A DNA stretch of 64,000 bases from Bacteroidota bacterium. Its GTDB lineage: Bacteria; Bacteroidota; Bacteroidia; Chitinophagales; Chitinophagaceae. The stretch spans positions 1 through 64,000 of the forward strand of contig JAUZNZ010000020.1 of the NCBI GenBank assembly GCA_030706735.1. The letters run 5' to 3'. The translations under genes were made by a program, and so were the position numbers. This document shows, piece by piece, positions 28,933 through 50,996 of the stretch. Numbering within the stretch: position 1 is the first letter of the stretch; each line of letters starts with the position of its first letter. The notes under the pieces are model-generated. The model did no database searches. It was given only the letters and a program-made list of their open reading frames with translations, and was not told where the DNA came from.

Positions 28933-31035
28933 CTATTCGGCGACCGTCGCCGGGACGGACCGTCTGCGGGGCCGGATGAAATCGAGCGGATTGCTGCGGA
29001 AATAGCGCCAGAGGATTCCCAGGAAGGCGGGGTATTTGTTCAGCCGGACCCCTCTCGAGCGGGCCGCAACGAAGAATGCAAGGGAGAAGCTGACCAGGAA
29101 ATTGAAGAAGCCGATGCCCAGAACGCCTCCGATCACCGTCAGCAGGTACCAGCGCGGGATATTTTCCAGGCCCAGGCCATAGGCCGCGAAGGCGACGTTT
29201 CCGGAGGAGATCGTGATATGCCGGATGTCGAAGTGGATGCCGAAGACCTCCCCTACCGTTCCCGCCATGCCGAGGAAGAAGCCCAGCGCGATATTCCCGA
29301 TGATGGTACCCGCGTGCGCCTCGATGTAGGCGGCAAGCCGTTGCAGGCGGCGTTCGGGTACCGTCAGGCGCAGGACGGGATGCGTCGTGAGCCTTTTGCC
29401 GATATGGCCATACTGGATCTTGTTCTGGACATAGCCGGCAATGATGCCGCTCAGGAATAGAAAGACGCCGGTGTTGCAGGCATAGAGCAGCGAAAGACTT
29501 TGCCAGGGGTGCTGGTCACGGAGCATATCGGCCGCCACCTGTCCCGAGACGATCTTCGCGCCGGCGATCTTCTCATAGAGCCAGGCGATCAGCCAGGCGC
29601 CGGGAAATACAATGAGCAGGTTGCCCGCGAAGGAGGCGATCTGGCTGCGGGACACTTTGGCGACGGTCACCGCGAGGTTGTAGAGATTGGGTTCCTGGTC
29701 GCTCTTGCGCGTGTCGAGGGCGACGGCCACGGCGCTGGCGGTGAAGGCCGGCTGCTTGGTGGCGAGCGTGGTATGCGTCTCCTCGATCAACAGGAAGCTG
29801 ATGCTGTAATTCACGCTGTAGGCGAAGCCATGCCAGAAGATGGGCATCCTAAGGCGGCCGAGGAGGTTCTTTATAAATACAGCCAGGCATATCCAGGCCC
29901 CGCCGCCCATGGCGCTCCTCAGCATGGCGACGTATTCGCTCCAGGTCGACGTGATATACTTGCTGCCCTTGGAACCCTTATGTTCGGCGATCTGGTAGGC
30001 CAGGTAGCCCATGCTTTGGGACATGAACTCGCGGATGCTGTTCTTGCGATTCTCGTTGCGCACGAGCATGCGGAAGAAATCCACGAACTTTCCGGTGTCG
30101 AAATGCCGGTCATTGTCGAGCAGATCGACGAGGATCATGATGCGGTCGAGGCGGTTGGACAGGATCAGCAGCGTATAGGTTTGATGGAGGCTGGCTCCGC
30201 GCGAATAAGACTGCTCGCGGATCTGGGCGATGCAGTCGTAGCATTGCTGCAGGGTTTCGGCGACTTGCCCTGTCAGGACCGTCGTGCCGGGGAGACCGGG
30301 CGATGGGGAGAGACCGGGCGACGGGGAGAGAGCGGGCGATGGGGGGAGAGCGGGCGATGGGGTTCGATCCTCCTCCAGGAGCCATTGTTCGAGGGCATGT
30401 ATGCGATAGTTCTGCTCCACGAAGGGATTGTCTTCCTGTTGTTCGGGGGAAATATAATTCCGTACTTCTTTTTCCAACCCGAGCTGCGCCACCTGGAAAG
30501 CGAGGACCTTCAAGGATTGCAGGAGCTGATGAAGGATACGCCGGTCGTCCATGTGCAGGGAAAGGCCAATCGCCGCGAAGAGGCGTACCCAGGACTCGCG
30601 CGGGATCGATTCGACCCATTGGTAGTCATGGCGGCGGAAGAAAACGCGGTTGATCACGTAAAGAAAATCATGCTCATCCTGCAGGGGCGGAAGCAGCTTG
30701 TGGCGCAGGCGACCGAAGAACTCCTGCCAAAAGCCCCGGGCGATGGGTATGCCGCTCTCCGTAAGCGTAGCCGACAGGTCGGTCCGGATCAACTGACTGA
30801 ACAGCGCATGGCGGAGATTAGTCAGGAAAACGGGATGTTGTTGCAGGGCGGCCGTCAAATGCTCCAGGTTCCTGGTCGCGTCGCGGGCGCCCCGGCGGCG
30901 GGAGGGCCTTACGGCCGAAAAAAAACCGACCAGGAAATCCAATCCCTGGCGGCTGTCCGATACCGATAGTATGGTTGACCGCGTGGTGGCCGTTTCGAGA
31001 AAGTCGGGCTTATTTCTGTTTTTGGATCCGAACAT
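28933..31035 (-). CDS. Gcr-type 'site-specific recombinase' family membrane protein (PF10136-like)
   Basis: A 700-residue protein. The N-terminal 350 residues are soluble and helical (for example DEHDFLYVINRVFFRR); about residues 360-680 have at least six membrane segments (YSVNYSISFLLIEE, FAGNLLIVFPGAWLIAWLY, GFFLGMAGTVGEVFGI, VIGGVLGIGFFNFLVSFSLAFFV). The ETHTTLATKQPAFTAS motif is characteristic of the family named after Neisseria Gcr. No recombinase catalytic motif is visible and the topology argues for a membrane role, so the family name is probably misleading. A Pro/Ser repeat interrupts the soluble part. ATG at 31035 is chosen; upstream the frame runs into hutI, which ends 8 nt before. 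Confidence 0.75.
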   Translation of the reverse strand: MFGSKNRNKPDFLETATTRSTILSVSDSRQGLDFLVGFFSAVRPSRRRGARDATRNLEHLTAALQQHPVFLTNLRHALFSQLIRTDLSATLTESGIPIARGFWQEFFGRLRHKLLPPLQDEHDFLYVINRVFFRRHDYQWVESIPRESWVRLFAAIGLSLHMDDRRILHQLLQSLKVLAFQVAQLGLEKEVRNYISPEQQEDNPFVEQNYRIHALEQWLLEEDRTPSPALPPSPALSPSPGLSPSPGLPGTTVLTGQVAETLQQCYDCIAQIREQSYSRGASLHQTYTLLILSNRLDRIMILVDLLDNDRHFDTGKFVDFFRMLVRNENRKNSIREFMSQSMGYLAYQIAEHKGSKGSKYITSTWSEYVAMLRSAMGGGAWICLAVFIKNLLGRLRMPIFWHGFAYSVNYSISFLLIEETHTTLATKQPAFTASAVAVALDTRKSDQEPNLYNLAVTVAKVSRSQIASFAGNLLIVFPGAWLIAWLYEKIAGAKIVSGQVAADMLRDQHPWQSLSLLYACNTGVFLFLSGIIAGYVQNKIQYGHIGKRLTTHPVLRLTVPERRLQRLAAYIEAHAGTIIGNIALGFFLGMAGTVGEVFGIHFDIRHITISSGNVAFAAYGLGLENIPRWYLLTVIGGVLGIGFFNFLVSFSLAFFVAARSRGVRLNKYPAFLGILWRYFRSNPLDFIRPRRRSVPATVAE
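30289..30362 (-). repeat. 18-bp tandem repeat coding a Pro/Ser/Ala linker
   Basis: About four copies of a unit close to GGGCGATGGGGAGAGACC lie inside the Gcr-type gene and encode repeated (L/P)SPSPGL/ALPPSPA segments. The repeat is in frame (18 bp = 6 residues). Confidence 0.8.
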
Positions 31036-34111: not shown

Positions 34112-36446
34112 AGCTTTTTTGGGTTAGGGGTGCGGACGAAGTCAATAATCTCAATAGAGGCAGTACCTGCTGTTGCGAGAGGATGGTATATTGGGCAGCC
34201 GAGGGGCTGTTGCTTACTTTGATGGTATAGGCCTCCCCTTCCAGGGCCTTGAACATATCTTCGTCCGTGGTGTCGTCACCCATGCAGAGGATGAAATCCG
34301 GATCCGATTCCTTGACGATCTTTAGCGCCGTCGCACCCTTGTCGAACCCCGAAAGGCGAACCTCGACGACCTTATTGCCGTCGATCAGCTGGAGCGAAGT
34401 ATTTTGAATGAGATTAGACAAGGTGTTGAGCAGTTCACGGGACCGGGAAAAGCCCAGTCCTGACTGGGTATTGCGATAATGCCAGGCGATGGCATTCGTC
34501 TTTTCCTCGACAAAAGAGCCGGCGCAACGGGCCACGAACAGCCGCATGACCGGCAGGATCTGCTCTTTCCACAGGTCGGAGACGGACACCAGTTGCTGCC
34601 AGGTCGAATTCCTCATCTTGATGCTCGCCCCATGCTCCGCCACCAGGGTAAGGGGCAACATGCCGAGCCATCCTTCGAGGGAGGTCAGGTCGCGGCCGCT
34701 TATCACGACGACGTGGTTCCGCGGATCCGCCGAAAGGTCACGCAAGAGCTCTCTAACGCCATTGTCGGGAGACGCTTCAGAGGGCAGCCGGGTAAACGGA
34801 ACCAGCGTACCATCATAGTCGAGCAGGAAGCAGCGATTGCGGGTGTTCTGATAATGGCGTCGTATCTCGTCGGCCACCCGGTCGTCGAGGAACTTTACTT
34901 TTTGCTTCTGCTGATCCTGCTTCACCTGGGCGAGTTGTTCCAGGAAATCATTGACCCAGCGTGTCACGTCGTATTCCTTAAGGCGTCGTTGCATGGGCAC
35001 GAGCCTGGTGCGCTGTTCGTAGAGGGGCATGGCCAGGGCACGTGTGATGGCGGAGGCGATATCGCCCACGTCGGTCGGGTTCACGAGTATGGCCTCGCTC
35101 AATTCGCTGGCGGCGCCGGCCAGCTCGCTCAGGATCAACACGCCGCGGCCGGCGGCGCAACTCGCGACATACTCTTTCGCCACGAGGTTCATGCCGTCGC
35201 GCAGCGGGGTGATCAGGGCGACGTCGGCCGCCTGGTAGAGTGCGACCAGTTCGGTGAAGGGAAGGTGATTATACCGATAGATGACCGGTTGCCAGCTGAT
35301 GGTCGAGAATCGGCCATTTACCATGCCGATCTTCTCTTCGATCGTCTTCTTCCGTTCGGAATAGGCGGGAATTTCGCTCCGGGACGGAACGATATTGAGG
35401 ATGAAGACCATTTTTTCCCGCCATTCCGGGTAGCGTTCCAGGAAATATTCGAAGCCGTCGAGCCGTTGCATCAGTCCCTTGGTATAGTCCATCCTGTCGA
35501 CCGAGAATATGATCTTCTTATCCTCGAAGTTGGTTCGAATGCGGTTGCGCATATCCAGCACCGCGGGGTCTGTGGATGCGTCGTGGAACTTATTGTAGTC
35601 GATGCCGATGGGGAACAGGTCGATACGGATGAGGCGATCCTGGTATTGCAGCGTATGAAAGTAATTTTCGACGCCCATCAGCATTTTCACGGATTGGAGG
35701 AAATGCTGCACGTAGTCGTAGGTATGAAATCCGATCAGATCGGCTCCCATCAGGCCTTTTAGCAGGCCCGTCTTCCATTCGGCGGGCAGGAGGCGAAAGA
35801 TCTCATAGGACGGAAAGGGGATGTGCAGGAAGAAGCCGATGCTGGCGTCCGGTCGTTGGGCCCGCAGCATTTGCGGCAATAACATCAGTTGATAGTCATG
35901 TATCCAGACGACGTCGTCGGGTTGCAGGATCGGAACGATCTTTTCGGCGAAAAGCTGGTTCACCTGAACATATGAGGAATAAAAACGGGCTTCATAACTG
36001 GCCAGCGAAGCAAAATAGTGGAAAAGGGGCCAGAGTACCGAGTTCGAAAAGCCATTGTAGTACCCATCATACAGCTCCTTGTCCACGAAGAGCGGGATGA
36101 CCGTAAACTCCTGTTTATCTGCGTGCCCGGCGACGGCGGCGTCCCAGTCTGCCTGGGGAAAATCCGCCACACCCATCCATATCTTCCCGGAAAAAACCTG
36201 TGGGGTCGGAACGCGCGGGGTTTGGGAAAGGGTTTGGATTTGGCTGGCCGGCGATGCGGGGCCGGTTGGCGATGCGGGGCTTGGGGATGATGCAGGGTTG
36301 GGTGATGATGCGGCACTGACCGCGTGTTCGAAATATCCTTTGATGGCAGAAACGAGACCGCCGGAACTTTGCCGGATATTCACCTTTTCGCCCTCCCGGT
36401 CCAAGGAGAAAGGCAGTCTATTGGAAATGAGGATGAGGCGACCCAT
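34092..36446 (-). CDS. Fused trehalose-6-phosphate synthase / trehalose-6-phosphate phosphatase
   Basis: Makes trehalose from UDP-glucose and glucose 6-phosphate in two steps. The 784-residue protein has a GT20 synthase domain (about 1-510) starting RLILISNRLPFSL, with VWIHDYQLMLLP, FLHIPFPSYEIFRLLP, DRMDYTKGL and PLRDGMNLVAKEYVA, and a HAD phosphatase domain (about 540-775) with FLLDYDGTLVPF and CMGDDTTDEDMF. Residues 45-70 form a Pro/Ser/Ala linker (NPASSPSPASPTGP) from short DNA repeats, placed inside the early synthase domain. The 3' end overlaps the GH15 start by 20 nt, indicating a coupled operon. Fusion of OtsA and OtsB is known in Bacteroidota and eukaryotes. Confidence 0.95.
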   Translation of the reverse strand: MGRLILISNRLPFSLDREGEKVNIRQSSGGLVSAIKGYFEHAVSAASSPNPASSPSPASPTGPASPASQIQTLSQTPRVPTPQVFSGKIWMGVADFPQADWDAAVAGHADKQEFTVIPLFVDKELYDGYYNGFSNSVLWPLFHYFASLASYEARFYSSYVQVNQLFAEKIVPILQPDDVVWIHDYQLMLLPQMLRAQRPDASIGFFLHIPFPSYEIFRLLPAEWKTGLLKGLMGADLIGFHTYDYVQHFLQSVKMLMGVENYFHTLQYQDRLIRIDLFPIGIDYNKFHDASTDPAVLDMRNRIRTNFEDKKIIFSVDRMDYTKGLMQRLDGFEYFLERYPEWREKMVFILNIVPSRSEIPAYSERKKTIEEKIGMVNGRFSTISWQPVIYRYNHLPFTELVALYQAADVALITPLRDGMNLVAKEYVASCAAGRGVLILSELAGAASELSEAILVNPTDVGDIASAITRALAMPLYEQRTRLVPMQRRLKEYDVTRWVNDFLEQLAQVKQDQQKQKVKFLDDRVADEIRRHYQNTRNRCFLLDYDGTLVPFTRLPSEASPDNGVRELLRDLSADPRNHVVVISGRDLTSLEGWLGMLPLTLVAEHGASIKMRNSTWQQLVSVSDLWKEQILPVMRLFVARCAGSFVEEKTNAIAWHYRNTQSGLGFSRSRELLNTLSNLIQNTSLQLIDGNKVVEVRLSGFDKGATALKIVKESDPDFILCMGDDTTDEDMFKALEGEAYTIKVSNSPSAAQYTILSQQQVLPLLRLLTSSAPLTQKSYANPQV
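36241..36312 (-). repeat. Imperfect 12-18 bp repeats coding the Pro/Ser linker of OtsAB
   Basis: Variants of GGCGATGCGGGG repeat about four times and encode PASSPSPASPTGPASPAS. Compositionally alike to the repeat in the Gcr-type gene at 30289. Confidence 0.65.
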
Positions 36447-37391: not shown

Positions 37392-39086
37392 TCATTTTAA
37401 TCGCTCCCTGATATCCAAGTGGTGCCTACGGAGGGTATCCTTTGCGATATCGTAGCCGGCATCGGCGTGACGGATCACCCCGAGTCCGGGGTCGTTTCGT
37501 AGCACCCGTGCGAGCCGTTCGGCGGCACGGGGCGTCCCGTCGGCGACGATCACCATCCCGGCGTGGATGCTATATCCCATCCCGACGCCCCCGCCATGAT
37601 GAAGGCTTACCCAACTGGCGCCGCCGGCCGTATTGACCAGTGCATTGAGTATCGGCCAGTCGGCGATGGCGTCGCTGCCGTCGAGCATGGCTTCGGTCTC
37701 CCGGTTCGGGGAGGCCACGGAGCCGGTATCGAGATGGTCACGGCCGATGACGATGGGCGCTTTCACTTTGCCGGTGCGGACCAGTTCATTGAAGGCGAGC
37801 CCTGCCTTTTCCCTTTCCCCCTGGCCCAGCCAGCAAATCCTTGCGGGCAGTCCCTGGAAGGCAATCTTTTCCTTTGCCAATTTCAGCCATCGCTGCAAGG
37901 AAGCGTTTTGCGGAAAGAGTTCTGAGATCACTGCGTCAGTCGCCGCGATATCGGCAGGGTCGCCGCTCAATGCGGCCCACCGAAATGGCCCCTTGCCTTC
38001 GCAGAACAGGGGCCGAATGTAAGCTGGCACGAATCCGGGGAAGTCGAATGCGTTCTTTAAGCCCTTCTCCTGCGCACGGGCCCGGATATTATTGCCGTAA
38101 TCGAAGGTCACGGCGCCAAGACGGTGTAATTCGAGCATGAGTTCGACATGGCGGTACATGGAGCGATAGGCATAGTCGATATATTGTTGCGGGTTTTGTT
38201 GACGAAGCACTTTTGCCTGTTCGTAGGAGATCTCATGAGGCCAGTAGCCGATCAGCGGATCATGGGCCGAGGTCTGATCGGTAAGCGTATCGGGAACGAT
38301 CTTTCTTTCGACGAGGCGTTGCAACAGGTGCACGGCATTGCACAGTACGCCGATGGATAATACTTCTCCTCTTTGTTTCGCCTGCAGCGCGCGGTCGATG
38401 GCCTTGTCCAGGCCCGGCTGATCCATCCCGGAAAGCTTCAGGTCGAGGTATTTTGTCTCCAGCCGCTTGTCGATCCTCCATTCCTCCACTTCCGCGATCA
38501 GGGCGACCCCTTCATTCATCGTGATCGCGAGGGGCTGTGCCCCGCCCATCCCACCCAGGCCGGCGGTAACGTTGAGGGTACCACGCAGGGATCCGCCGAA
38601 ATGACGGGCGGCCGCGGCCGCGTACGTCTCATAGGTACCCTGTACGATGCCCTGGGAGCCGATATAGATCCAGGAGCCGGCCGTCATTTGGCCGTACATG
38701 ATGAGGCCTTTTTTTTCCAGTTCGTCGAAATGTTCCCAGTCCGCCCATTTCGGCACGAGCTGTGAATTCGAAATGAGGACGCGGGGCGCGTCGGGGTGTG
38801 TTTTGAGGATCCCAACCGGCTTGCCGGACTGTACCAGGAGGGTCTCGTCATTTTCCAGATCCTTCAGCGCTTTGATGATCAGGTCGAGTGCCTCGAAATT
38901 GCGGGCCGCTTTTCCGCGCCCGCCGTACACGATCAGTTCGTCGGGTCGTTCGGCCACTTCGGGGTCGAGGTTATTGAGCAGCATACGCAGGGCGGCCTCC
39001 TGGATCCAGCCCTTGCATTGGAGTTTGGTTCCGGTGGGGGTTTGGTATTTTATCGGGTCATAGCGTTTGTACGTGGTGGAGCTCAT
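37392..39086 (-). CDS. hutU: Urocanate hydratase
   Basis: Second step of histidine degradation: converts urocanate to imidazolonepropionate using tightly bound NAD+ as electrophile. The 564-residue protein has the conserved [26 protein letters not shown] (NAD-binding glycine-rich stretch), SDQTSAHDP-like [25 protein letters not shown] and [17 protein letters not shown] motifs. Length is as expected. It follows hutH by 15 nt in the same direction, forming a hutH-hutU unit. Confidence 0.97.
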
Positions 39087-39101
39087 AATGCGACGTTTTA
39101 G

Positions 39102-40664
39102 TCAAAGGGCAAACGAGGGGTGTCCTCCGTTCAGGTTTATGCCGGCGGAAGCGGCGGCCTCATTCACTTTATTCACAAAAGAAAAATCGCTGATGACCGA
39201 TCTCAGCCGGTTGATATCGTCGGCAAAGATACGATCCTCGCTGGCGAAGCCGACCAGTGACCGGGCCACTCCATGCGCCGCCTCCAGGATGGCGCTGCTG
39301 CGCAGCGGTCGCCGGAATTCGATCGCCTGGCACGCGCTCATCAGTTCGATGGCCAGGATGAACTCCAGGTTGTCCAGCACCTGGTTGAGCTTTCTGCCGC
39401 TGATGCTGCCCATGCTGACATGGTCTTCCTGGCCGAGCGAGGTGGGAATGCTGTCGGCGCTTGCCGGAAAACAAAGCGTTTTATTTTCGCTGACCAGGGC
39501 GGCGGTCGTGTATTGGGGGATCATGAAACCGCTGTTCAGACCGACATTATTCATGAGCAGGAGCGGCAGTCCCCATTTGCCTTCGAGCAACAGGTAGCAA
39601 CGGCGGTCGGAAATATTGCCGATCTCGGCGGCGGCGAAGCAGGCATAGTCGAGAGGCAGGGCCAATGGCTGTCCGTGGAAATTCCCGCCGCTGATCGTGT
39701 CCGCCTCGCCGAGTATGATGGGGTTATCGGTCACGGAATTCAGCTCGATCTCCGTGAGCTGTCGCAGGTGCAGCCAGGCGTTGCGGGATGCGCCGTGCAC
39801 CTGCGGCATACAGCGCAACGAATAGGGGTCCTGTACCCTTCCGCAATCGACATGACTTTGCATGATGGCGCTGTCATGGAGAAGGAGCCGGAGACGCTGC
39901 GCTACCAGCTCGCTGCCCGCGAAGGGCCGCAGGCGGTGAAGGCGTTCGTCGAAGGGCGCCTTTGTTCCGGTCAATGCCTCCAGGCTCATCGCTCCGATAA
40001 TATCGGCGGCCTCCAGGCAGTTGTGCATGCGCCGGACGGCCTTTACGGCATAGGACAGGATGAACTGCGTGCCGTTGATCAGTGCGAGGCCCTCTTTCGG
40101 TCCCAATTGCAACGGCGCCATTCCGGCGGCCTGCAATACGTCCCGGGTGTTTTGCCTTTTTCCTTTGTACGTTACCTCCCCGAGTCCGATCAAGGGGAGA
40201 AAGAGATGCGCCAGGGGGGCGAGGTCCCCGGATGCGCCGACGGACCCTTTCTCCGGCACGACCGGCGTTACCTCCTCTTCGATATGCCAGATCAGCCGTT
40301 CGAGCGTAGCGGGACGAATGCCCGAAAATCCCCGCGCCAGCGCATGGATCTTGGTGATCAGCATGCATCGCGCAATGTCCGGCGGGACGGGATCCCCCAC
40401 GCCAACACTGTGGCTCTGCAGGATCTTATGCTGAAGAATGCGTGTATCTTCTTCCGAAATACGGGTGTCGGAGAGAATGCCGAAGCCGGTATTGATGCCG
40501 TACACCGTCGTTTGCCTGCTTACGATCCGGTCCACGGCCTGTTGGCTCGCGCTGATCTTTTCCAGGGCCTGCGGACCGATCCTTCCCTTCAGGGAACCAC
40601 CGGCCAGCGCAAGGGTCTTTCCGATCGTGAGCTCGTCCGTTCCATACTGAAAGGAATGATTCAT
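39102..40664 (-). CDS. hutH: Histidine ammonia-lyase
   Basis: First step of histidine degradation: non-oxidative deamination of L-histidine to urocanate. The 520-residue protein carries the MIO prosthetic-group tripeptide A144-S145-G146 in GSVGASGDLAPLAHL, YGINTGFG near residue 55-62, and QEDHVSMGS. Slightly longer than the usual 500-510. ATG at 40664 is chosen because the family starts shortly before TLALAGGSL. It heads a hutH-hutU unit and has a TATTTTTG box (40680-40687) 15 nt before the start codon; it is divergent from the SDR gene. Confidence 0.97.
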   Translation of the reverse strand: MNHSFQYGTDELTIGKTLALAGGSLKGRIGPQALEKISASQQAVDRIVSRQTTVYGINTGFGILSDTRISEEDTRILQHKILQSHSVGVGDPVPPDIARCMLITKIHALARGFSGIRPATLERLIWHIEEEVTPVVPEKGSVGASGDLAPLAHLFLPLIGLGEVTYKGKRQNTRDVLQAAGMAPLQLGPKEGLALINGTQFILSYAVKAVRRMHNCLEAADIIGAMSLEALTGTKAPFDERLHRLRPFAGSELVAQRLRLLLHDSAIMQSHVDCGRVQDPYSLRCMPQVHGASRNAWLHLRQLTEIELNSVTDNPIILGEADTISGGNFHGQPLALPLDYACFAAAEIGNISDRRCYLLLEGKWGLPLLLMNNVGLNSGFMIPQYTTAALVSENKTLCFPASADSIPTSLGQEDHVSMGSISGRKLNQVLDNLEFILAIELMSACQAIEFRRPLRSSAILEAAHGVARSLVGFASEDRIFADDINRLRSVISDFSFVNKVNEAAASAGINLNGGHPSFAL

Positions 40665-40679
40665 ACCGTCATTTGGCTT

Positions 40680-40687
40680 CAAAAATA
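40680..40687 (-). promoter_or_regulatory. -7 box of hutH
   Basis: TATTTTTG on the minus strand, exact TAnnTTTG match, 15 nt upstream of the hutH ATG; no TTG at the usual distance, so activator dependence is possible. Confidence 0.5.
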
Positions 40688-40740
40688 GGGAGTTTTGGCG
40701 CAATAAAACCGCCCACCGGCGGCATTCCGCGGCTACTGAT

Positions 40741-40796: not shown

Positions 40797-41510
40797 ATGA
40801 TTATAGGGAATGGGCTTGTAGCCGCGGGTTTTAGTCCTTATGCCGGGAGGGAGGAATTCCTCATATTTGCATCCGGCGTCTCCGACTCCAAGCATTGCAG
40901 CGCGGTCGATTTTGAACGGGAACGCAATCTGCTCACCGGAGCCCTCGAAAAGAACCCGGGCAAACGATTTGTTTATTTCGGTACCGCCAGCGTAGCCGAT
41001 CCGGATCTCCGTGAGACCCCCTATATCCGGCACAAGATCGCGATGGAAGAGCTCGTGCGCACCCATGCTGCGGCCTTCCATATCTTCCGGGTGTCCAACC
41101 TGGCGGGCGTTTCGGCTAATCCGAATACCGTGCTCAATTTCCTGTATGCGCATATCAGCCAGGGCAGGCCCTTCGAGCTCTGGACGCATTCGGAAAGAAA
41201 TATCATCGACCTGGCGGACGTGTTCCAGATTGCCGACCATATCCTTAGGAAAAACCTTTTTGCCAATCGCACGATCGCCATCGCCAATGAAAAGAACTAT
41301 GCAGTCAGGTACATCGTAAAGTGCATTGAAGCTTTCACCGGCAGGACGGCAATCTACACGGAGAGAGCAAAGGGAAGCGCATTCCAGATCGATATTTCCG
41401 ATATCCAACCGATATGTCGCTCGCTGGGTATCCGGTTTGGAGAAGATTATTTGCCGCATTTACTGGAAAAGTATTATGCGGGGAAAAAAAAGAATCACCC
41501 AGCGAAATGA
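40797..41510 (+). CDS. NAD-dependent epimerase/dehydratase-like (short extended-SDR) protein
   Basis: A 237-residue cytoplasmic protein related to extended SDR sugar-nucleotide enzymes. The N-terminus MIIGNGLVAAGF is a reduced Rossmann loop. IFASGVSDSK, YFGTAS (strand 5 serine region) and the Tyr-x-x-x-Lys-type pair in TPYIRHKIAMEELV support an SDR fold; NLAGVSANPNTVLNFLYAHI matches the substrate-binding part. It is shorter than typical epimerases (about 310), so activity may differ. The stop overlaps the start of the glycosyltransferase (ATGA), so the pair acts in the same glycan pathway. Confidence 0.75.
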   Translation: MIIGNGLVAAGFSPYAGREEFLIFASGVSDSKHCSAVDFERERNLLTGALEKNPGKRFVYFGTASVADPDLRETPYIRHKIAMEELVRTHAAAFHIFRVSNLAGVSANPNTVLNFLYAHISQGRPFELWTHSERNIIDLADVFQIADHILRKNLFANRTIAIANEKNYAVRYIVKCIEAFTGRTAIYTERAKGSAFQIDISDIQPICRSLGIRFGEDYLPHLLEKYYAGKKKNHPAK

Positions 41511-42682
41511 GATACAGGAGGGCCAAGATTAAAATAAGGCTGGAACTTATCGGGATGTTCCCGTTCGTGCTGCTTGGCAGGATCTATGGCCGTCTGTTCC
41601 CGCTGCGCGCGCCGGGAAACCTGTTCCTGTTCTTTTCCTCGGCGGATCTGGGCGGCGCCATCAAGGTCAATGCCGATATCCTGGACTGCGTGGCCGACAG
41701 ACAACCGGTCATCATTTTCTCGAAGCGACCCAGGAACAATGGGTTCCGGTCCCTTTTCTACCGGAAAGGCGTCACCATTCTGGACCTGCACAAGAGGATC
41801 GATAATAAGCTCTTTCATTTCGTTAACTTCTTTTACCGGGGCGTGCTGGCTTCCTGGATCAACAGGGCAAAAGATCCGGTGGTTTTCGGCGGGGAGAACC
41901 TCTTCTTTTACAAGGTGATCCCGCATCTGCGGGCGGACATCCCCCGGATCGAGCTATGCCATCTGGACACCTGGCTGCCCTATACCATCGGGCTGATCGA
42001 CCGGATCACGATGCGGATCTGCAGCACCCTCAGGATGAAGGAGGCGATCATCCGGCAATATGACGAAAACCGGGTGGAACCGAAATACTATGATCGCCTG
42101 CATTTCATCGAGAACCGGATCGACATGCCGGAATTCGAAGAGGTCAGCAATCCAAAGCTCGAGGTCGTATTCATTGGCCGGGGCGCGCCGCAGAAAAGGG
42201 TGCCCCTGATCGCCGCCATAGCGACCAGGATGCATGAACTGGGCCTTCCGGTCCATTTCTCATTCGTCGGCGACGTCGAGAAGGTGATCGAACCCGGCGT
42301 GCTCCCTTTTTGCACTTTTTACGGAAATGTGCGGGATGAAGAACGGATGCGGGCGATCTATCGCGGATCGGATGTCCTGATCCTGACTTCTGCGTATGAG
42401 GGACTGCCGCTGGTGGTCATGATCATGATGGCCCATGGAAAGGTCGTCATTTCCACGGCGGTGAACGGGATACCTGACTATATCACTCATCTGGAAAATG
42501 GGCTACTGATCCGGGCGACGGGCGAAGAAGAGATCGTAGAGGAAGGAGTGGCGCTATTGCGTCTGCTGATCGAAGATCCGGCGTTACGGATCGCCATGGG
42601 GCGGCAAAGCCGGGCGGCTGCCATGGAAAAATTCGGCGGGGCTTTGTTCTGTCGTGAATACCGGAGGATCCTGATAAGATAA
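41507..42682 (+). CDS. Glycosyltransferase family 4
   Basis: A 391-residue GT-B glycosyltransferase. The C-terminal half has LEVVFIGRGAPQKRVPLIAAIA, the YGNVRDEERMRAIYRGSDVLILTSAYEGLPLVVMIMMAHGK donor-binding region (the acidic residue in AYEGLP is typical of GT4) and NGIPDYITHLENGLLI. The N-terminal half (FFSSADLGGAIKVNADI) is the acceptor domain. It probably adds a sugar to a surface polysaccharide or glycolipid; donor and acceptor are unknown. ATG at 41507 is chosen since it overlaps the SDR stop by 4 nt, the usual coupled arrangement. Confidence 0.88.
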   Translation: MRYRRAKIKIRLELIGMFPFVLLGRIYGRLFPLRAPGNLFLFFSSADLGGAIKVNADILDCVADRQPVIIFSKRPRNNGFRSLFYRKGVTILDLHKRIDNKLFHFVNFFYRGVLASWINRAKDPVVFGGENLFFYKVIPHLRADIPRIELCHLDTWLPYTIGLIDRITMRICSTLRMKEAIIRQYDENRVEPKYYDRLHFIENRIDMPEFEEVSNPKLEVVFIGRGAPQKRVPLIAAIATRMHELGLPVHFSFVGDVEKVIEPGVLPFCTFYGNVRDEERMRAIYRGSDVLILTSAYEGLPLVVMIMMAHGKVVISTAVNGIPDYITHLENGLLIRATGEEEIVEEGVALLRLLIEDPALRIAMGRQSRAAAMEKFGGALFCREYRRILIR

Positions 42683-42876: not shown

Positions 42877-43620
42877 TCAATATCCAAACCGGTTAAGGAA
42901 CTCGGTTTTCCGGCGGGAGGCAACCTCGATGAGGGCCTGGTCCTCCATTTCAATATACCCTCCCCTGCCCTTGTGGTATTTTTTGATGCACATCAGGTTA
43001 ATGATATGGGAATTGTGAACCCGCATGAAGATCAATGGCGGCAATATCTCCTCATATTCCTTTATATTCTTGGCCGAAAGTATCTTTTCTCCTTCCTTCA
43101 TATGGAAAACCGTGTATCCCCCGCTGGCTTCGCAACGCATGATCTTATCGGTCATCACGAACACAAGCCCTTCCATGCTCGGTAAGGCGAGCTTGTACGT
43201 ACTGGCATTAGGCTGTTTGAGGTTCGCGAGGAGATTATGGAGTTGCTTATTCATATTGCGAAGCCGAAGCTTCTCGGATGCCTTTTGAACGGCAGCGCGC
43301 AACTCGCCGATATTGACCGGCTTCAACAAATAATCGAGCGCACTGTATTTGAATGCCTTCAGCGTATAGTCATTGAACGCCGTCACGAAGACGACCTCAA
43401 AATTCACCGGCATAAGACGGTCGAGCAGGTCAAAGGCATTGCCATACGGCATTTCGACATCGAGAAAAACCAGGTCCGGCTGGGATTTGGAAATTATTTT
43501 CTCCGCTTCACCCGCATTGGCCGCCACTCCAATCACCGAGGTATCAGGACAAAATTCGGCGAGCATGGCGGTAAGAACCCGGACATTCTTTGGCTCATCG
43601 TCGACAATAATACAGTTCAT
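42877..43620 (-). CDS. LytTR-family response regulator
   Basis: DNA-binding response regulator of 247 residues. The receiver domain (1-120) has the acidic pair D7-D8, phosphoacceptor D54 in VFLDVEMP, T80 and K100. The LytTR domain (about 143-247) includes MRCEASGGYTVFHM, RVHNSHIINLMCIKKYHKGRGG and SRRKTEFLNRF. LytTR proteins bind pairs of direct repeats about 20-22 bp apart. Its start overlaps the stop of the histidine kinase gene (ATGA), so the two are translationally coupled and are almost certainly cognate. Candidate target sites are the repeat pairs at 37346, 42833 and 56175. Confidence 0.95.
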   Translation of the reverse strand: MNCIIVDDEPKNVRVLTAMLAEFCPDTSVIGVAANAGEAEKIISKSQPDLVFLDVEMPYGNAFDLLDRLMPVNFEVVFVTAFNDYTLKAFKYSALDYLLKPVNIGELRAAVQKASEKLRLRNMNKQLHNLLANLKQPNASTYKLALPSMEGLVFVMTDKIMRCEASGGYTVFHMKEGEKILSAKNIKEYEEILPPLIFMRVHNSHIINLMCIKKYHKGRGGYIEMEDQALIEVASRRKTEFLNRFGY

Positions 43621-46600
43621 GATGTTGGTTCATTAAAGTTAGTGGATACATTATCCAGCGGAAAGAACAGGGTCACCCTTGTCCCCAATGCCTCCAGGCG
43701 GTCATTTTCCAGGTCCTCGACCAGTATCCTTACCGGGGCCTGGCCTGTCTGGCCTGTCTGGTTGAACATTTCGATCCGTTTTTCGGTCAGCGACATTCCC
43801 CTCGACTGGTACTCGATGGCATTGCTGCTACGGAACTGTCTCGCGAGCTTGCGACCTACCCCGTTATCCTCGATCGAGCAAACCAGAAAGCCGGATCTAA
43901 TGGAAATCCTGATGTCGATCATCCCGTTCTTGTCTTTCCGCAGGCCCATACCATGCCGGATGGCATTCTCTACATAGGGTTGAAGGATCATCGGGGGGAT
44001 CTCATAGAATTCCGTGTCCATCCCCTCTTCCACGTCGACCCGATAGTCGAACCTATTCTCGAACCTTCCTTTTTCCAGCTCCAGGTAGGTCGACAGGTAT
44101 CCGATCTCCTGTTGAAGGCTAATGAAGGGCCTGGAAGAAAAGTCAAGGGTCTGACGGATCAGTCGGGCAAAATTCGTAATAAATTCGTTGACGCCACGCA
44201 CGTCCTTTTCCATCACATATTGCTGAATCGAATTCAGGCAGTTGAAAATGAAATGGGGGTTCATCTGGGAGCGAAGGGCCATTTGTTCCAGTTCCGCCAT
44301 CCTTGCGACCGTCAGGGATTTCTCCTCTTCCTTATTCCTGATCACGCGCACGCGCCATGCAAAGATCATCCATACCAGCGCGGCGAGGGCCAGGCCGATA
44401 GTTATCCGGAAGCCCGCCTTTTCCCACCACAGTCTTTCCACGGAAAACCGGATGGAAACGGGTTCACTGTGTACCCCGAATTTGTTTATGGCTTGCAGTT
44501 CCAGCTCGTAACTGCCGGAAGGCAGGGAGGGATAGGTCAGGAAATTCTCGCGCGTCGATCTCCAGTCCTTGTCCGGGCCAATGAGCCTGTATTCATAATT
44601 GATATTGCCTGCCGACCGAAGGGAAATCCCTGCAAACCCGATCCGGATATTATTGTCGGCGTGCGGTAATACGAAGTCGGTCGTGTCGGGCGTCCATGCG
44701 CGTTGGGAAACGGTGATGGACGTAATCTTCAGGAGACAGATCGAACGACGGGATATCTTCTTTTCATTGAACCAGACCAGTCCATCGGCATTGCCGACGA
44801 AGACGTCGTCATTTTTAACATAGACCGTATTAATAATATCCGAACCAAGGCCATCCGACTTGGTAAAAGGGGTGCAAACGACGCCCGTGTCGACAAACCT
44901 GATCTTGTTCAAGCCCCGGTCCGTGCCCAGCCAAACGGCCGTTGCGGTGGCAAAGATCGCCCGGCATACGTTGCTGGTCAGGCCATTATTTCGGGTAATC
45001 TGTGCGACGATCCGCCCGTCCTTGTACCCGACAAGCCCTCCGCCATCCGTTCCGATCCAAAGCGTGCCGTCCGGTGAATTGGCCAGGGCGGTAATCTTGG
45101 TGGACAGTACGGGATAGCGGTCGCCAAGGAATGTTGACGATTTATTTGGGTCCACGGCATAAAGGCCGGTTAATGTCCCGATGTAATAATGGTTGTTAAG
45201 CCATATGGCGGACGTGGAGCGTTCCTTCCACACCGTGTCGAAGTGAATGAACCCGCTGGATATTATGCGCCGGACCGCCTGATCGCCAACATCCAGAATG
45301 GTCGAATCCGAGAGATGAGTGAGCGCTTTTATTGAATGTGGCATGTCCGCGGAGTCGGACCGGGAGGGCCTTCTGACCTTGCCTCCAAAGCGGTCGAAAA
45401 GAAACATGCCGTAGTCGGTGCCGGCGACCGTCTTGTCCCCGAAACCCCTCGCTATATCCATGACCCGACCCCTGGAGATCGAGGTAGTCAGTCGCATGGA
45501 TCGCACGTGCCCGGAATGCAGGTCAAGGGACCAGAGCATAAAGTGGTCGCTGCCCAGGTACAGTATCGAATCCCATTCGCGAATGCAGAAGACCGGTCCG
45601 CGGGCGTATTCCGCACGAAATAAGGCTGAGTAATCCCTGATGTCCCTGGAACCGAGACGAAATACCCCATTGCCCAGGGTGCTGAACCAAATGTTCCCTT
45701 CCATATCCTCGATGGCCGCATTCACCGTCTGACCTTTAAGGAAGCTGTCGATGATCTCCCTCTTCCGGATATCGAACAGGTAATTGTAACGGTTCGTATT
45801 GACCATGAACAGGCTATCGTCAAGGTGGGACACGGAGAGTATGCCTCCGATCGGCGGCAGCCTGAATTCCTCTTTGCCATCTGCGTCCATGAAAACCAGC
45901 ACCGAATCGTTTACGGAACGGGTCATGCCGGTGCTGCTCATATAGCAATTGAGGGGAGTTGTCCCCGCTGATTTTCCAATCGTGTCGATGGGAACAAACT
46001 GGTTGCCCTCCAGATCCGCCAACGCGACTTCCCCCGGACAGAAGACCGAGACCCGGAACCCACCGCCTTTTTTTGCACCGGCATTGAGTATGGCGAACCA
46101 GAGATAGCCGCGCAGTTCCCTGATCAGTGCGACGGTTCCATCCGGACGTATGAGATGAGCGCATTTTTGTTCGACCAGGAGAATATTTCCGGCCGCGTCC
46201 TCAACGATATTCGTGATCTTGCCTGAGAGCCTGATCCTGGCCAGCACAGGGTCCGTCCGCTGATCATAAATCCTGCCTTTCCAGTAATAGGCGATCGTGC
46301 TTCGAAAGGGCATTATCCAGACGCGGTTGCGCGAGTCTACAAAAAGGTTGAGTACTTCGTTGTCCGGCAGGCCGCTCTCTACCGTGAAATTCGTGAATTG
46401 ACCGCCATCGAAGCGGCTAAGCCCTGTTTCGGTGCCGAACCAGATGAACCCATCCTTATCCTGGGCCATGCAATACACCGTGGATCCGGTCAGGCCGTCG
46501 GCGACATCGTAGTGTGCGTAGCTATGGAGGTCCTGTGCCGAAAGCGCCGCGGTCGGGAGGATGGCAACGAGCAGGAGAAAAAGCAGGCAGGACACCATGC

Positions 46601-47516
46601 GATGGAGGGTCATCAGGAGTTTCGAGAAAACACCCATTCGCAGAATGGCGGCCGGAATGCGGCGTTGAAATCGTATCATGGAGCCGATCGGTTCGGGTAT
46701 GGCACCCGGATAGCCGGCCCTGACGATATCTTCCGGATCCCTAATGGACAAATTGCGAAGCAGGCGCCACCAGGCGTCCCACAGGCGCCAGTTGCGAAGC
46801 GAATCCTCCCCGGTCTTGTTCAGCAATCGAAAGCTTTCCGGGATCTCGACCATGGGATTGCGGAAACTGGCGGCCGTCACCTGCTGATCGCTGACGCCGA
46901 TATTGACCAGGGCATCCGGGATGTACCATGCCTCGCCATGCTTCAGGTATTCAATATAAAAATCGATATCGACCAGCCATTTGAGATGATTGTCAAACAG
47001 GACGCCCTCTCTTCTCTTAAATGCGGTGCAGCTGGGCGGTCCGATCGTATTTCCCGCAAACAGGACGCGGGGATCGTTGAGGACGACCTTGCGGCGGATC
47101 GCCGGGGCGAAAATAGAACGGCCATGGCCATCAGGATACACGTTCCGGTAAGCCGAGAAAACAAAAGAGGCCTGTGGGTTCAGCCTGATTGCCTCGGCAA
47201 AAGCATTCAGGCTGTCGCTGTTGACGAACCAATCATCGTCATGCATGATCTTGATCCATTCTCCCTGCGCGTGCCGGACGGCTTCATTCCAATTTTCTGG
47301 GGTGCCTAGCGGGGATTCGTTCCGGAAATAGCGTACCGGAAGCCGATCGGCGTAACGGAGAATTAAAGACTCCACCGACCGGTCTGGGCTATCATCGGTC
47401 ACGATGACTTCGAAGTCATTATAGCTTTGGATGGCGATCGAATCCAATAGCCTTTGCAGGCAGGCCGCTCGCTTGTAGGCAGGAATGCAGATGGAAAAGA
47501 AAGGATGTGCCCGCAT
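43617..47516 (-). CDS. GT2 glycosyltransferase - sensor histidine kinase fusion
   Basis: A single open frame of 1299 codons joins two proteins. Residues about 5-300 are a GT2 glycosyltransferase (PFFSICIPAYKRA, VIVTDDSPD, MHDDDWF). Residues 302-327 (from MTLHRMVSC) are a signal-peptide-like hydrophobic stretch. About 330-985 are Reg_prop beta-propeller repeats (MAQDKDGFIWFGTETGLSRFDG, GTLWIGTDGGGL), then a Y_Y_Y domain, a membrane helix (1038-1056) and a His_kinase domain with SQMNPHFIFN (H1088), NAIRHG and DNGVG. The stretch can act as a membrane anchor, giving a consistent topology: GT2 and kinase inside, propeller outside. Alternatively the kinase is also translated from ATG at 46613 or 46598. 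Start 47516 follows the promoter at 47540; a longer start would lie upstream of it. Confidence 0.85.
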   Translation of the reverse strand: MRAHPFFSICIPAYKRAACLQRLLDSIAIQSYNDFEVIVTDDSPDRSVESLILRYADRLPVRYFRNESPLGTPENWNEAVRHAQGEWIKIMHDDDWFVNSDSLNAFAEAIRLNPQASFVFSAYRNVYPDGHGRSIFAPAIRRKVVLNDPRVLFAGNTIGPPSCTAFKRREGVLFDNHLKWLVDIDFYIEYLKHGEAWYIPDALVNIGVSDQQVTAASFRNPMVEIPESFRLLNKTGEDSLRNWRLWDAWWRLLRNLSIRDPEDIVRAGYPGAIPEPIGSMIRFQRRIPAAILRMGVFSKLLMTLHRMVSCLLFLLLVAILPTAALSAQDLHSYAHYDVADGLTGSTVYCMAQDKDGFIWFGTETGLSRFDGGQFTNFTVESGLPDNEVLNLFVDSRNRVWIMPFRSTIAYYWKGRIYDQRTDPVLARIRLSGKITNIVEDAAGNILLVEQKCAHLIRPDGTVALIRELRGYLWFAILNAGAKKGGGFRVSVFCPGEVALADLEGNQFVPIDTIGKSAGTTPLNCYMSSTGMTRSVNDSVLVFMDADGKEEFRLPPIGGILSVSHLDDSLFMVNTNRYNYLFDIRKREIIDSFLKGQTVNAAIEDMEGNIWFSTLGNGVFRLGSRDIRDYSALFRAEYARGPVFCIREWDSILYLGSDHFMLWSLDLHSGHVRSMRLTTSISRGRVMDIARGFGDKTVAGTDYGMFLFDRFGGKVRRPSRSDSADMPHSIKALTHLSDSTILDVGDQAVRRIISSGFIHFDTVWKERSTSAIWLNNHYYIGTLTGLYAVDPNKSSTFLGDRYPVLSTKITALANSPDGTLWIGTDGGGLVGYKDGRIVAQITRNNGLTSNVCRAIFATATAVWLGTDRGLNKIRFVDTGVVCTPFTKSDGLGSDIINTVYVKNDDVFVGNADGLVWFNEKKISRRSICLLKITSITVSQRAWTPDTTDFVLPHADNNIRIGFAGISLRSAGNINYEYRLIGPDKDWRSTRENFLTYPSLPSGSYELELQAINKFGVHSEPVSIRFSVERLWWEKAGFRITIGLALAALVWMIFAWRVRVIRNKEEEKSLTVARMAELEQMALRSQMNPHFIFNCLNSIQQYVMEKDVRGVNEFITNFARLIRQTLDFSSRPFISLQQEIGYLSTYLELEKGRFENRFDYRVDVEEGMDTEFYEIPPMILQPYVENAIRHGMGLRKDKNGMIDIRISIRSGFLVCSIEDNGVGRKLARQFRSSNAIEYQSRGMSLTEKRIEMFNQTGQTGQAPVRILVEDLENDRLEALGTRVTLFFPLDNVSTNFNEPTS

Positions 47517-47539
47517 ACGACGGCTAACCATTAAATTCG

Positions 47540-47568
47540 TAAAGTTATTCGTACATTGCAAACTTCAA
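47540..47568 (-). promoter_or_regulatory. Promoter of the GT2-kinase-LytTR operon
   Basis: TAACTTTA (47540-47547, one mismatch to TAnnTTTG) with TTG (47566-47568) 18 nt upstream, directed at the GT2-kinase gene. It places the transcription start near 47535, just before ATGs at 47531 and 47516. Confidence 0.5.
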
Positions 47569-47581
47569 GAATTTAGTTGTA

Positions 47582-48412
47582 ATGCGAAGAAATTTTTTGG
47601 GCAATCTGGCCGCCGGAATTCAAAAAAGGTTCAAGACCCTCTTAGAAAGTCCAAAAGGCGAACTCAGTTTGAACTGGTTGACCACTAAATATTATAAGCA
47701 TTTGCCCGCCGGAAAGATCCGAAAGCGGTCCTTGTTTGGAAAAACCCTTTATTTCTCGAGTCCCGGGGAACTTTTGCACGGGTTCCATGAAATATTTACT
47801 GAACAAATTTACAAACAGTCATTACCCGACCGTTCTTACATTATCGACTGCGGCGCGAATATCGGTCTGAGCGTGATCTATATGAAGCGGTTGTGTCCCA
47901 CGGCTCAGATCCTGGCATTCGAGCCGGACGAACGTAATTTTTCACTGCTTATGAAAAACATCGGCTCCTTTGGCCTGAAGGATGTCGACATACGCCGGGA
48001 AGCGGTCTGGAAAGAAAACACGGTTCTGCATTTTTCCGATGAAGGCGCCATGGCGAGCAAGATCGAGTCCAGTCAAACTGAACAGTCCAGGGAAATAACG
48101 GGGATCCGATTGAAGGACCTGCTAACCCGCAGCGTGGACTTCCTCAAGATCGATATCGAGGGCGCGGAATTTGAGGTCATGAAGGACATCAGCAGCAGCC
48201 TGCATTTTGTAAAGAACCTGTTCATCGAATACCACGGCTCGTTTGGAAAGACAAGTGAGTTATCGGAACTACTCGGGCTGATAAGCAGCCATCAATTCGA
48301 ATATTATATCAAGGAGGCCGCACCGGTTTACGAAACCCCTTTCTACCGGCCGCCGGGAAAAAGCGTCCCCTACGACGTACAACTCAATCTTTTTTGTTTT
48401 CGCCTGCCTTAA
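47582..48412 (+). CDS. FkbM-family methyltransferase (copy 1)
   Basis: SAM-dependent O-methyltransferase-like protein of 276 residues. The Rossmann motif I is YIIDCGANIGLSVIYM (about residues 87-102), motif II LAFEPDERNFSLL, and the FkbM signature VDFLKIDIEGAEFEVM follows, with FIEYHGSFG and a C-terminal LFCFR. Family members methylate hydroxyls on natural products and surface sugars. It is divergent from the GT2-kinase gene and is a close paralog of the gene at 49471, with the same length and same terminal pattern. The surrounding glycan genes suggest a methylated sugar substrate. Confidence 0.9.
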   Translation: MRRNFLGNLAAGIQKRFKTLLESPKGELSLNWLTTKYYKHLPAGKIRKRSLFGKTLYFSSPGELLHGFHEIFTEQIYKQSLPDRSYIIDCGANIGLSVIYMKRLCPTAQILAFEPDERNFSLLMKNIGSFGLKDVDIRREAVWKENTVLHFSDEGAMASKIESSQTEQSREITGIRLKDLLTRSVDFLKIDIEGAEFEVMKDISSSLHFVKNLFIEYHGSFGKTSELSELLGLISSHQFEYYIKEAAPVYETPFYRPPGKSVPYDVQLNLFCFRLP

Positions 48413-49470: not shown

Positions 49471-50301
49471 ATGCCCCTGTTACGTAATTTAATTGCCGGA
49501 GTCAATCACAGGCTAAAGAAGATACTATCCCGTCCATACAGCGTCTTCGACATCGGATGGCTCAAGGAAAAAACGCTGAAGCACCAGACAGATACCGGGT
49601 TGAAGCATCATGTCTATAAAAGAAAATACAAGATCGCTTACCGGGACGGCCCGACCTTCCTAATGTCCATCAAAGAACTGTTTATAGACGAATTTTACAA
49701 ATTCAGACCGGATTCGGATCATCCCAGGATAATCGATTGCGGTTCTTACATCGGTACCAGCATCCTCTTTTTCAAGGTCAATTATCCTCATGCGATCATT
49801 ACGGGGTTTGAGCCAGACGCCTCAAACTATTCCCTGTTAAAGTCCAATGTGGACAATTGGGGTTTTTCCGGGATAGAAATTTTTAATGCGGCCATTTGGG
49901 TAAATAATGAAAACGTCAGCTTCCATTCCGCCGGCAATATGTCCAGCCGGATCGAAGCGGGTGCGAATGAGCGTGACGATCAAAAGATGGTGAGGTGCGT
50001 CCGGTTAAATGACCTTTTACATGAACAGGTTGATTTCCTAAAGATCGACATCGAAGGCGCCGAATTGCCTGTCCTAAGAGATTGCTCCGACAATTTAAAA
50101 AATGTAAAAAACCTTTTTGTAGAGTACCATGGAAAGTATAGTGAATTATCCGATCTGAATGAAATCCTGGAAATACTGTACCGTAGTGATTTCAAATACT
50201 GCATAAAAGAAGGGAATGCGGTGCATGCCAGGCCCCTTTGGGAAAGGGACAGCGGTGTTCAATATGACATGCTGTTAAACATATTCGCCTTCAGGGGTTA
50301 G
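49471..50301 (+). CDS. FkbM-family methyltransferase (copy 2)
   Basis: A 276-residue SAM-dependent methyltransferase and close paralog of the gene at 47582: same length, RIIDCGSYIGTSILFF (motif I), ITGFEPDASNYSLL, VDFLKIDIEGAELPVL, FVEYHGKYSELSDL and a terminal LLNIFAFRG. Likely methylates a surface glycan made by the neighbouring transferases. A -7 box ends 7 nt before the ATG. Its stop codon overlaps by 4 nt the end of the convergent third FkbM gene, where a 15-bp tandem repeat starts. Confidence 0.9.
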   Translation: MPLLRNLIAGVNHRLKKILSRPYSVFDIGWLKEKTLKHQTDTGLKHHVYKRKYKIAYRDGPTFLMSIKELFIDEFYKFRPDSDHPRIIDCGSYIGTSILFFKVNYPHAIITGFEPDASNYSLLKSNVDNWGFSGIEIFNAAIWVNNENVSFHSAGNMSSRIEAGANERDDQKMVRCVRLNDLLHEQVDFLKIDIEGAELPVLRDCSDNLKNVKNLFVEYHGKYSELSDLNEILEILYRSDFKYCIKEGNAVHARPLWERDSGVQYDMLLNIFAFRG

Positions 50302-50996
50302 CTCTTTTCAGGCTGGCTCTTTTCAGGCTGGCTCTTTTCATAAATGATGTCGTAGTAGCTGCCTCCGCCCGGATGTTTGGCGAAACGGTGCCGGGAATAC
50401 TCTTTGAATCCATGTTGGTCCATGAAGGATTGCAGGTCTTTGAGCTGACAACAGCCTTTATAGGACTCAAAGTCCGGAACCTCCGTTTTGATGTATTTAA
50501 AATGCGCGAGTATGGGCAACGCTCCTTTCAGCACCAGCAATTCGGATCCCTGTGTATCCATAACCAACATATCAAATCCTTCGATCCCGATATTATTCTC
50601 TCTTAACAAGGATGGAAGAGACCTGCTGAACAATTGGATGGTCTTTTCAAAACTGACATCCGGCCAAATGTCCTTATGAAGGTTTAACTCCAGGATGGAG
50701 GAGGACGCCCCGTTGTTGCTGGCCAGGTGAAACTGGTATTCGACATGATCCTGATCCGTCACCAGTCCTTTAACGGCCCTCTGTCCGGGAAAACCAGACA
50801 GGTTGTTTTCCAGGGTCTCAAATACTTCGGGGATGGGCTCAATCCAAACGACGGACAACCGGTATTTGTGGTACAATTCTATTTCCTGTCCGGTATTTGC
50901 ACCTACATGGATCACTCCCTTTACCTTTCGGAGCAATTCATTTGGATCTTTCGTGAATAAAGACCTGGCCCTCAGCAAGATTGATCTTTTTAGCAT
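50298..50996 (-). CDS. FkbM-family methyltransferase (copy 3, distinct subgroup)
   Basis: A 232-residue methyltransferase of a different FkbM subgroup. Motif I is GVIHVGANTGQEIELY (about 28-43), followed by VVWIEPIPEVFETLENN, GFDMLVMDTQGSELLVLKGA and HRFAKHPGGGSYYDIIYEK. The C-terminus is the repeated EKSQPEKSQPEKS encoded by a 15-bp tandem repeat that overlaps the stop of copy 2. It has a well-formed promoter at 51014-51043. It probably methylates another position or sugar of the same glycan; substrate is unknown. Confidence 0.88.
   Translation of the reverse strand: MLKRSILLRARSLFTKDPNELLRKVKGVIHVGANTGQEIELYHKYRLSVVWIEPIPEVFETLENNLSGFPGQRAVKGLVTDQDHVEYQFHLASNNGASSSILELNLHKDIWPDVSFEKTIQLFSRSLPSLLRENNIGIEGFDMLVMDTQGSELLVLKGALPILAHFKYIKTEVPDFESYKGCCQLKDLQSFMDQHGFKEYSRHRFAKHPGGGSYYDIIYEKSQPEKSQPEKS
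50301..50340 (-). repeat. 15-bp tandem repeat at convergent FkbM gene ends
   Basis: GCTCTTTTCAGGCTG occurs at 50301-50315 and 50316-50330 with a partial third copy to 50340. It encodes QPEKS units at the end of FkbM copy 3 and touches the stop codon of copy 2. Confidence 0.85.

Follow-up and report, generated by a model that had tools for sequence, protein, structure and literature searches.

The window, i.e. the whole 64,000-nucleotide stretch of DNA that was analysed, carries on its minus strand an uninterrupted open frame (43617–47516) which encodes a complete GT2 glycosyltransferase and, behind it, a complete Reg_prop/Y_Y_Y/His_kinase sensor. Counted from ATG 47516, the product has 1299 amino acids; further in-frame starts lie upstream (ATG 47531 and TTG 47561), and the frame ends at a TGA (43619–43617). 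The contig is number 14 of a 100-contig draft genome of 5.05 Mb that is 99.98% complete. The features of the locus are as follows (G and L numbers denote genomes and loci of relatives):

43617–47516, minus strand: fused open reading frame, 1299 amino acids (ORF and Pfam)
46602–47516, minus strand: GT2 glycosyltransferase half, residues 1–305, orthologous to stand-alone Chitinophagaceae GT2s (homology, alignment and model)
46536–46613, minus strand: junction, the last GT2 codons plus what was once the signal peptide of the kinase, from ATG 46613 or 46598 to the AALSA end (sequence, alignment and hydropathy)
43620–46598, minus strand: sensor half, with propeller (Reg_prop), Y_Y_Y and His_kinase (Pfam and homology)
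42877–43620, minus strand: LytTR response regulator, its ATG overlapping the stop of the fused gene by 4 bases, ATGA (ORF and Pfam)
41414–42682, plus strand: GT4 glycosyltransferase, also close to the GT2, kinase and regulator genes of some relatives, G014 and G020 (Pfam and relatives' loci)
40797–41510, plus strand: NAD-dependent epimerase-like gene, adjoining the GT4 gene here and in G014 (relatives' loci)
47582–48412, plus strand: FkbM-type methyltransferase gene, divergent, upstream of the fused gene (Pfam)

The Pfam matches in the fused protein, whose residue numbers run one higher because the query started one codon upstream, were to Glycos_transf_2 (PF00535; 75.8 bits against a cut-off of 23.3, residues 9–135), Reg_prop (62.5 against 20.4), Y_Y_Y (43.8 against 26.6) and His_kinase (78.1 against 25.2, residues 1078–1157). 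HATPase_c came just below its cut-off (23.2 bits against 26.4), and the ENxxRHG and DNGxG motifs are kept in 12 of 12 aligned kinases. When the GT2 half and the kinase half were aligned with their relatives, homology reached the junction from either side without a change of frame; the frame therefore did not arise by chance extension. The initial annotation had described just such a frame, with in-frame ATGs at 46613 and 46598 and with GT4, GT11 and FkbM genes as neighbours, and in all of this it agrees with the frame and the Pfam matches found here.

Several other features of the surroundings were recorded. Three FkbM-type methyltransferase genes (47582–48412, 49471–50301 and 50298–50996) lie close together around the GT11 gene. 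The hutU and hutH genes for histidine degradation (37392–40703) adjoin the glycan/kinase cluster, and genes that resemble them by eye stand beside the kinase loci of several relatives. Short tandem repeats at 30292–30362, 36253–36313 and 50290–50340, with units of 18, 18 and 15 bases, translate into Pro/Ser-rich or KSQPE repeats. A promoter and terminator scan of 46400–47700 returned 1 + 2 sites against 0.7 + 1.4 expected, nothing usable.

Class and occurrence of the two halves

Conservation was counted without the window's own row. Among 39 other GT2s, the GT2 half keeps 35 of 35 invariant columns and 63 of 63 columns that are 90% conserved. HDDDW, which we take to be the acidic metal-binding motif of DxD type, is present in all 40 aligned sequences, the window's included. 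A structure model of this half together with the junction reached a mean pLDDT of 93.3, its confidence dropping from about residue 311 and lying below 50 at residues 336–345; its top Foldseek matches are glycosyltransferases, e.g. SpsA, chondroitin polymerase K4CP and TarP, presumably all of GT-A fold. A GT-A fold is thus predicted by the model, and PF00535 plus the acidic motif assign this half to the GT2 glycosyltransferases. Its closest named relatives are from Chitinophagaceae. The stand-alone GT2s of this family (such as L086 in G026 and L078 in G014) are, over the genus and family searches, 38–55% identical to it and share its SKxxM end, but they stop 2–17 codons past the shared region, whereas the window's frame runs on.

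The kinase half keeps 148 of the 156 columns invariant among 11 other kinases, and 186 of 204 at the 90% level. NPHFIFN, with the acceptor histidine, is retained, as are ENxxRHG and DNGxG. Its Reg_prop, Y_Y_Y and His_kinase domains, the acceptor histidine and the adjacent LytTR regulator mark it as a putative sensor of a LytTR two-component system, presumably of the LytS/YehU type. Sensors of this kind with a LytTR partner show the same domains, an adjacent LytTR gene and 36–45% identity in the aligned set; none was found with a glycosyltransferase in front, whereas the window's has one. Across its propeller and Y_Y_Y region, this half also resembles in sequence the Bacteroides-type hybrid two-component sensors (solved chains 3v9f, 4a2l and 3ott). 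A hybrid two-component system (HTCS) was considered for the window's gene and rejected: the frame ends after the ATPase region, and the LytTR regulator is a separate gene, while 3v9f is named a hybrid sensor/regulator.

The initial annotation knew of no described family with this combination and held its reading refuted if homologues always had a stop codon between the two parts. A search of genome contigs with the GT2 half gave 62 loci; with the whole-genome searches the orthologue loci numbered 104 (87 distinct by protein), of which 85 cover the shared region to its last residue (query residue 306), L069 and L093 being left out since they do not. Once the window itself and L159, which ends with its contig, are set aside, every evaluable distinct locus (83 of 83) has its stop 2–17 codons beyond that residue, the outcome that the initial annotation had named as refuting. 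The family search with the GT2 half, at a threshold of E 1e-60, matched 103 of 394 genomes, counting that of the window, and the open frames in the other 102 have 298–363 amino acids (that of G392 is cut by a contig end) against 1315 for the window. With the kinase half, 62 of the 394 genomes matched at E 1e-120 or better, and the other frames listed have at most 1052 amino acids. Within the genus (E 1e-100) this half gave 23 matches in 12 of 33 genomes, again with the window's included; the longest other frames, of 1150 (L125) and 1108 (L106) amino acids, have no glycosyltransferase in front, as judged by eye. At a threshold of E 1e-90, the whole fused protein matched 2 of 395 genomes of the phylum: that of the window, and another in which the match was confined to the kinase. 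A second GT2–sensor fusion was therefore absent from the above-threshold matches in these 33 genomes of the genus, 394 of the family and 395 of the phylum, which are overlapping samples with one genome per species, scored at five (family GT2), two (family kinase) and two (phylum) candidates per genome, so that a distant case could be missed. The idea of a recurrent fusion family was rejected on these searches and on the stops in the GT2 loci. In the parts of the literature that our search covered, we found no described glycosyltransferase–kinase fusion and nothing on this kinase type or on a polyprotein precedent, and it is on that search that we call the combination undescribed. The fusion is a single-genome event between ordinary families, new in the domain order of two known kinds; it does not define a new family.

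The GT2–kinase–LytTR neighbourhood in relatives

In three congeners (G014, G020 and G026) a kinase lies directly behind the GT2 orthologue and is followed by the regulator, in G014 after a second kinase. The two genes share a frame in G026, where one stop and three codons separate them. In G338, which belongs to another genus, GT2 and kinase are read in different frames, the kinase frame adjoining or overlapping the stop of the GT2, with a second kinase and a regulator behind. One further GT2-like gene stands between GT2 and kinase in G007, of the same genus as the window, and in G366 and G412, of the genus of G338. Sixteen other congeners carry the GT2; in 12 of them the 0.9–1.5 kb examined behind it showed no kinase, and in five of these 12 neither did about 5 kb. 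At 25 further loci of the family, the kinase is directly behind the GT2 in one and 1.0–1.1 kb behind in three; the stretches examined behind the other 21 showed none, two of them being only 8 and 382 bases long.

Seen from the kinase side, 10 of the 22 other congener kinases directly follow a GT2-family gene, six of them overlapping its stop by 4 bases. The other 12 comprise three behind a kinase or regulator, three divergent from their neighbour and four behind an unrelated gene; of the remaining two, one (G031) is cut by a contig end and one (G002, contig 1) fell outside the neighbourhood reading. Judged from these sequences, GT2 and kinase are old neighbours, and their pairing is not universal among the congeners.

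A second GT2 type, ending NKPYFYKVL, stands directly before the kinase with a 4-base overlap at six congener loci:

L131, 4880–5890
L166, 11699–12700
L168, 7172–8314
L170, 4763–5764
L171, 7973–8971
L173, 5428–6432

The same arrangement occurs at L190 and L192, in another genus. Two or three propeller kinases stand in tandem at L128 (5399–11456), L189 (2603–8490), L192 (4433–13125) and L166 (2170–11702); a single LytTR regulator lies behind them in the first three and two regulators are present in L166, as if several sensors fed one regulator. A large gene, presumably sprA-like, precedes the GT2 in G020, G026, G027, G024 and G025 (loci including L130, 8188–11922, and L160). The G026 copy matches a 2418-amino-acid frame on another contig of the window's genome, which suggests that the GT2 has changed place in the genome.

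Junction, translation and proposed fate of the chain

The reading that we favour, and hold to be probably correct, is that operon neighbours were recently fused in frame and are made as one chain, which is probably cut by signal peptidase, i.e. that the gene encodes a two-protein polyprotein. The starting point would have been two adjacent, co-directional genes of a glycan-synthesis locus, one for the GT2 and one for the sensor kinase in a LytTR two-component system, joined in one lineage when the GT2 stop was lost in frame, together with about 11 codons around it. The mRNA would then be read from the GT2 start as a single chain; the old kinase signal peptide, now inside that chain, would enter the membrane, with the GT2 on its cytoplasmic and the propeller on its periplasmic side; and signal peptidase I would cut after AALSA, releasing a mature sensor of the ordinary kind and a GT2 that ends in a membrane tail. 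Each part would keep its ancestral job, glycan assembly for the one and control through the adjacent LytTR regulator for the other, and the gene would work as a two-protein polyprotein rather than as a tethered enzyme–sensor.

Hydropathy places two hydrophobic segments in the fused protein (307–325 and 1038–1056), and the net charge of 25 residues is +6 before the first and −3 after it; GT2 and kinase are therefore predicted to be cytoplasmic and the propeller periplasmic. This is the topology that the initial annotation had proposed, and on these two observations it stands. The former signal peptide is, by eye and hydropathy, intact and of ordinary length, and has the cleavage-type end of a signal-peptidase-processed polyprotein: an A-x-A-type end (A-L-S-A/Q) directly precedes the Q-D/E start of the mature part common to the relatives. 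Since this end matches those of the relatives, we infer that signal peptidase probably cleaves the chain into a GT2 with membrane tail and an ordinary sensor, although behind a 300-residue cytoplasmic domain cleavage may be inefficient. Cytochrome b/c1 FbcH of Bradyrhizobium is a polyprotein cut at an internal signal sequence. It shares with the window's gene the two proteins per frame and the internal signal peptide; for FbcH cleavage is shown, whereas for the window's product it is predicted.

The alternative that survives best, unlikely as it seems to us, is that the chain is not cleaved and acts as a membrane protein with two functions, its sensor part anchoring or gating the GT2 and tying glycan synthesis to signalling. 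It would fit a single chain as made likely by the start-context scores given below, the largely kept conserved columns of both halves, the predicted location of GT2 and kinase on the same side of the membrane and, in the structure model, one helix (295–319) that joins the end of the GT2 to the former signal peptide. Against it, the signal peptide has been kept whole, cleavage-type end included, and because the fusion was found in no second lineage, there is no sign of selection for it. A more specific version, to which we give very little credence, is that sensor and GT2 stay joined and that the ligand of the propeller, possibly the glycan being made, directly gates both the GT2 and the LytTR pathway; if true, a translationally coupled operon would here have been fixed as a feedback device in a single chain.

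Next comes the possibility that the stop was lost but translation of the kinase still begins at its own ATG (46598 or 46613), the fused product being a by-product. Both ATGs lie about where the kinases of relatives start. To score start contexts we used a matrix built from 15 stretches of this genome (about 276 kb) and the window, a small sample with starts called by rule; 89 presumed starts were scored leave-one-out, and 15 overlapping starts served as the fairer control, some of them being in the training set when scored. ATG 46598 scored −4.64, below every one of the 89 presumed and the 15 overlapping starts, whereas 650 of the 1707 internal ATGs equal or exceed this value; ATG 46613 scored −4.31, with 1 of the 15 overlapping starts as low. 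The scores were 4.73 for 47516, 5.03 for 47531 and 1.78 for the regulator start at 43620. ATG 46598 thus looks like an ordinary internal ATG, the initiation context of the old kinase start apparently having been lost, and for this reason we infer that the fused gene is made as one chain. Furthermore, the kinase start of relatives sits behind or across the GT2 stop, which the window lacks, and restart after termination in translational coupling needs an upstream stop. We therefore consider separate initiation improbable. The initial annotation had offered it, together with loss of the stop, as the simpler explanation: the stop loss fits best, while the own start finds no support in the scores.

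As for the event itself, the distance from the SKxxM motif to the kinase ATG is 15 codons including the stop in G026 and, with ATG 46598 taken as the former start, 4 in the window, which has therefore lost about 11 codons, stop included. A small in-frame deletion, or several steps, explains this better than one changed base, because of the 11 codons tested ahead of the kinase start only 2 are one substitution away from a stop, and because a one-base slip at the junction would extend the GT2 by 25–36 codons, as compared to tails of 2–17 codons in the relatives. The same figures bear on a sequencing or assembly error that would hide two genes. The draft state of the assembly, with its 100 contigs, and the occurrence of the fusion in one genome only are in its favour, but with homology continuous in one frame on both sides, few near-stop codons, overlong slip tails and no tandem-repeat array found at the junction, it is very unlikely. 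Early decay, with one half no longer functional, would agree with the lack of a fused relative and with the 8 invariant kinase columns (of 156) at which the window differs, but it is hardly credible given the fully kept invariant GT2 columns, the retained kinase motifs, the similar GC by codon position in the two halves (0.57/0.42/0.65 and 0.52/0.42/0.68) and the intact frame of the adjoining regulator.

The sounder point, beyond the polyprotein reading of this one gene, is the operon, in which propeller kinases with LytTR regulators lie directly behind GT2 genes of glycan clusters. The GT2–kinase–LytTR order, often with the 4-base stop/start overlap, was read in two genera (the window's and that of G338, G366 and G412), and it predicts that these sensors watch or control the synthesis of surface glycans. 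The fused gene is a natural test of whether an equal, coupled dosage of GT2 and sensor is tolerated.
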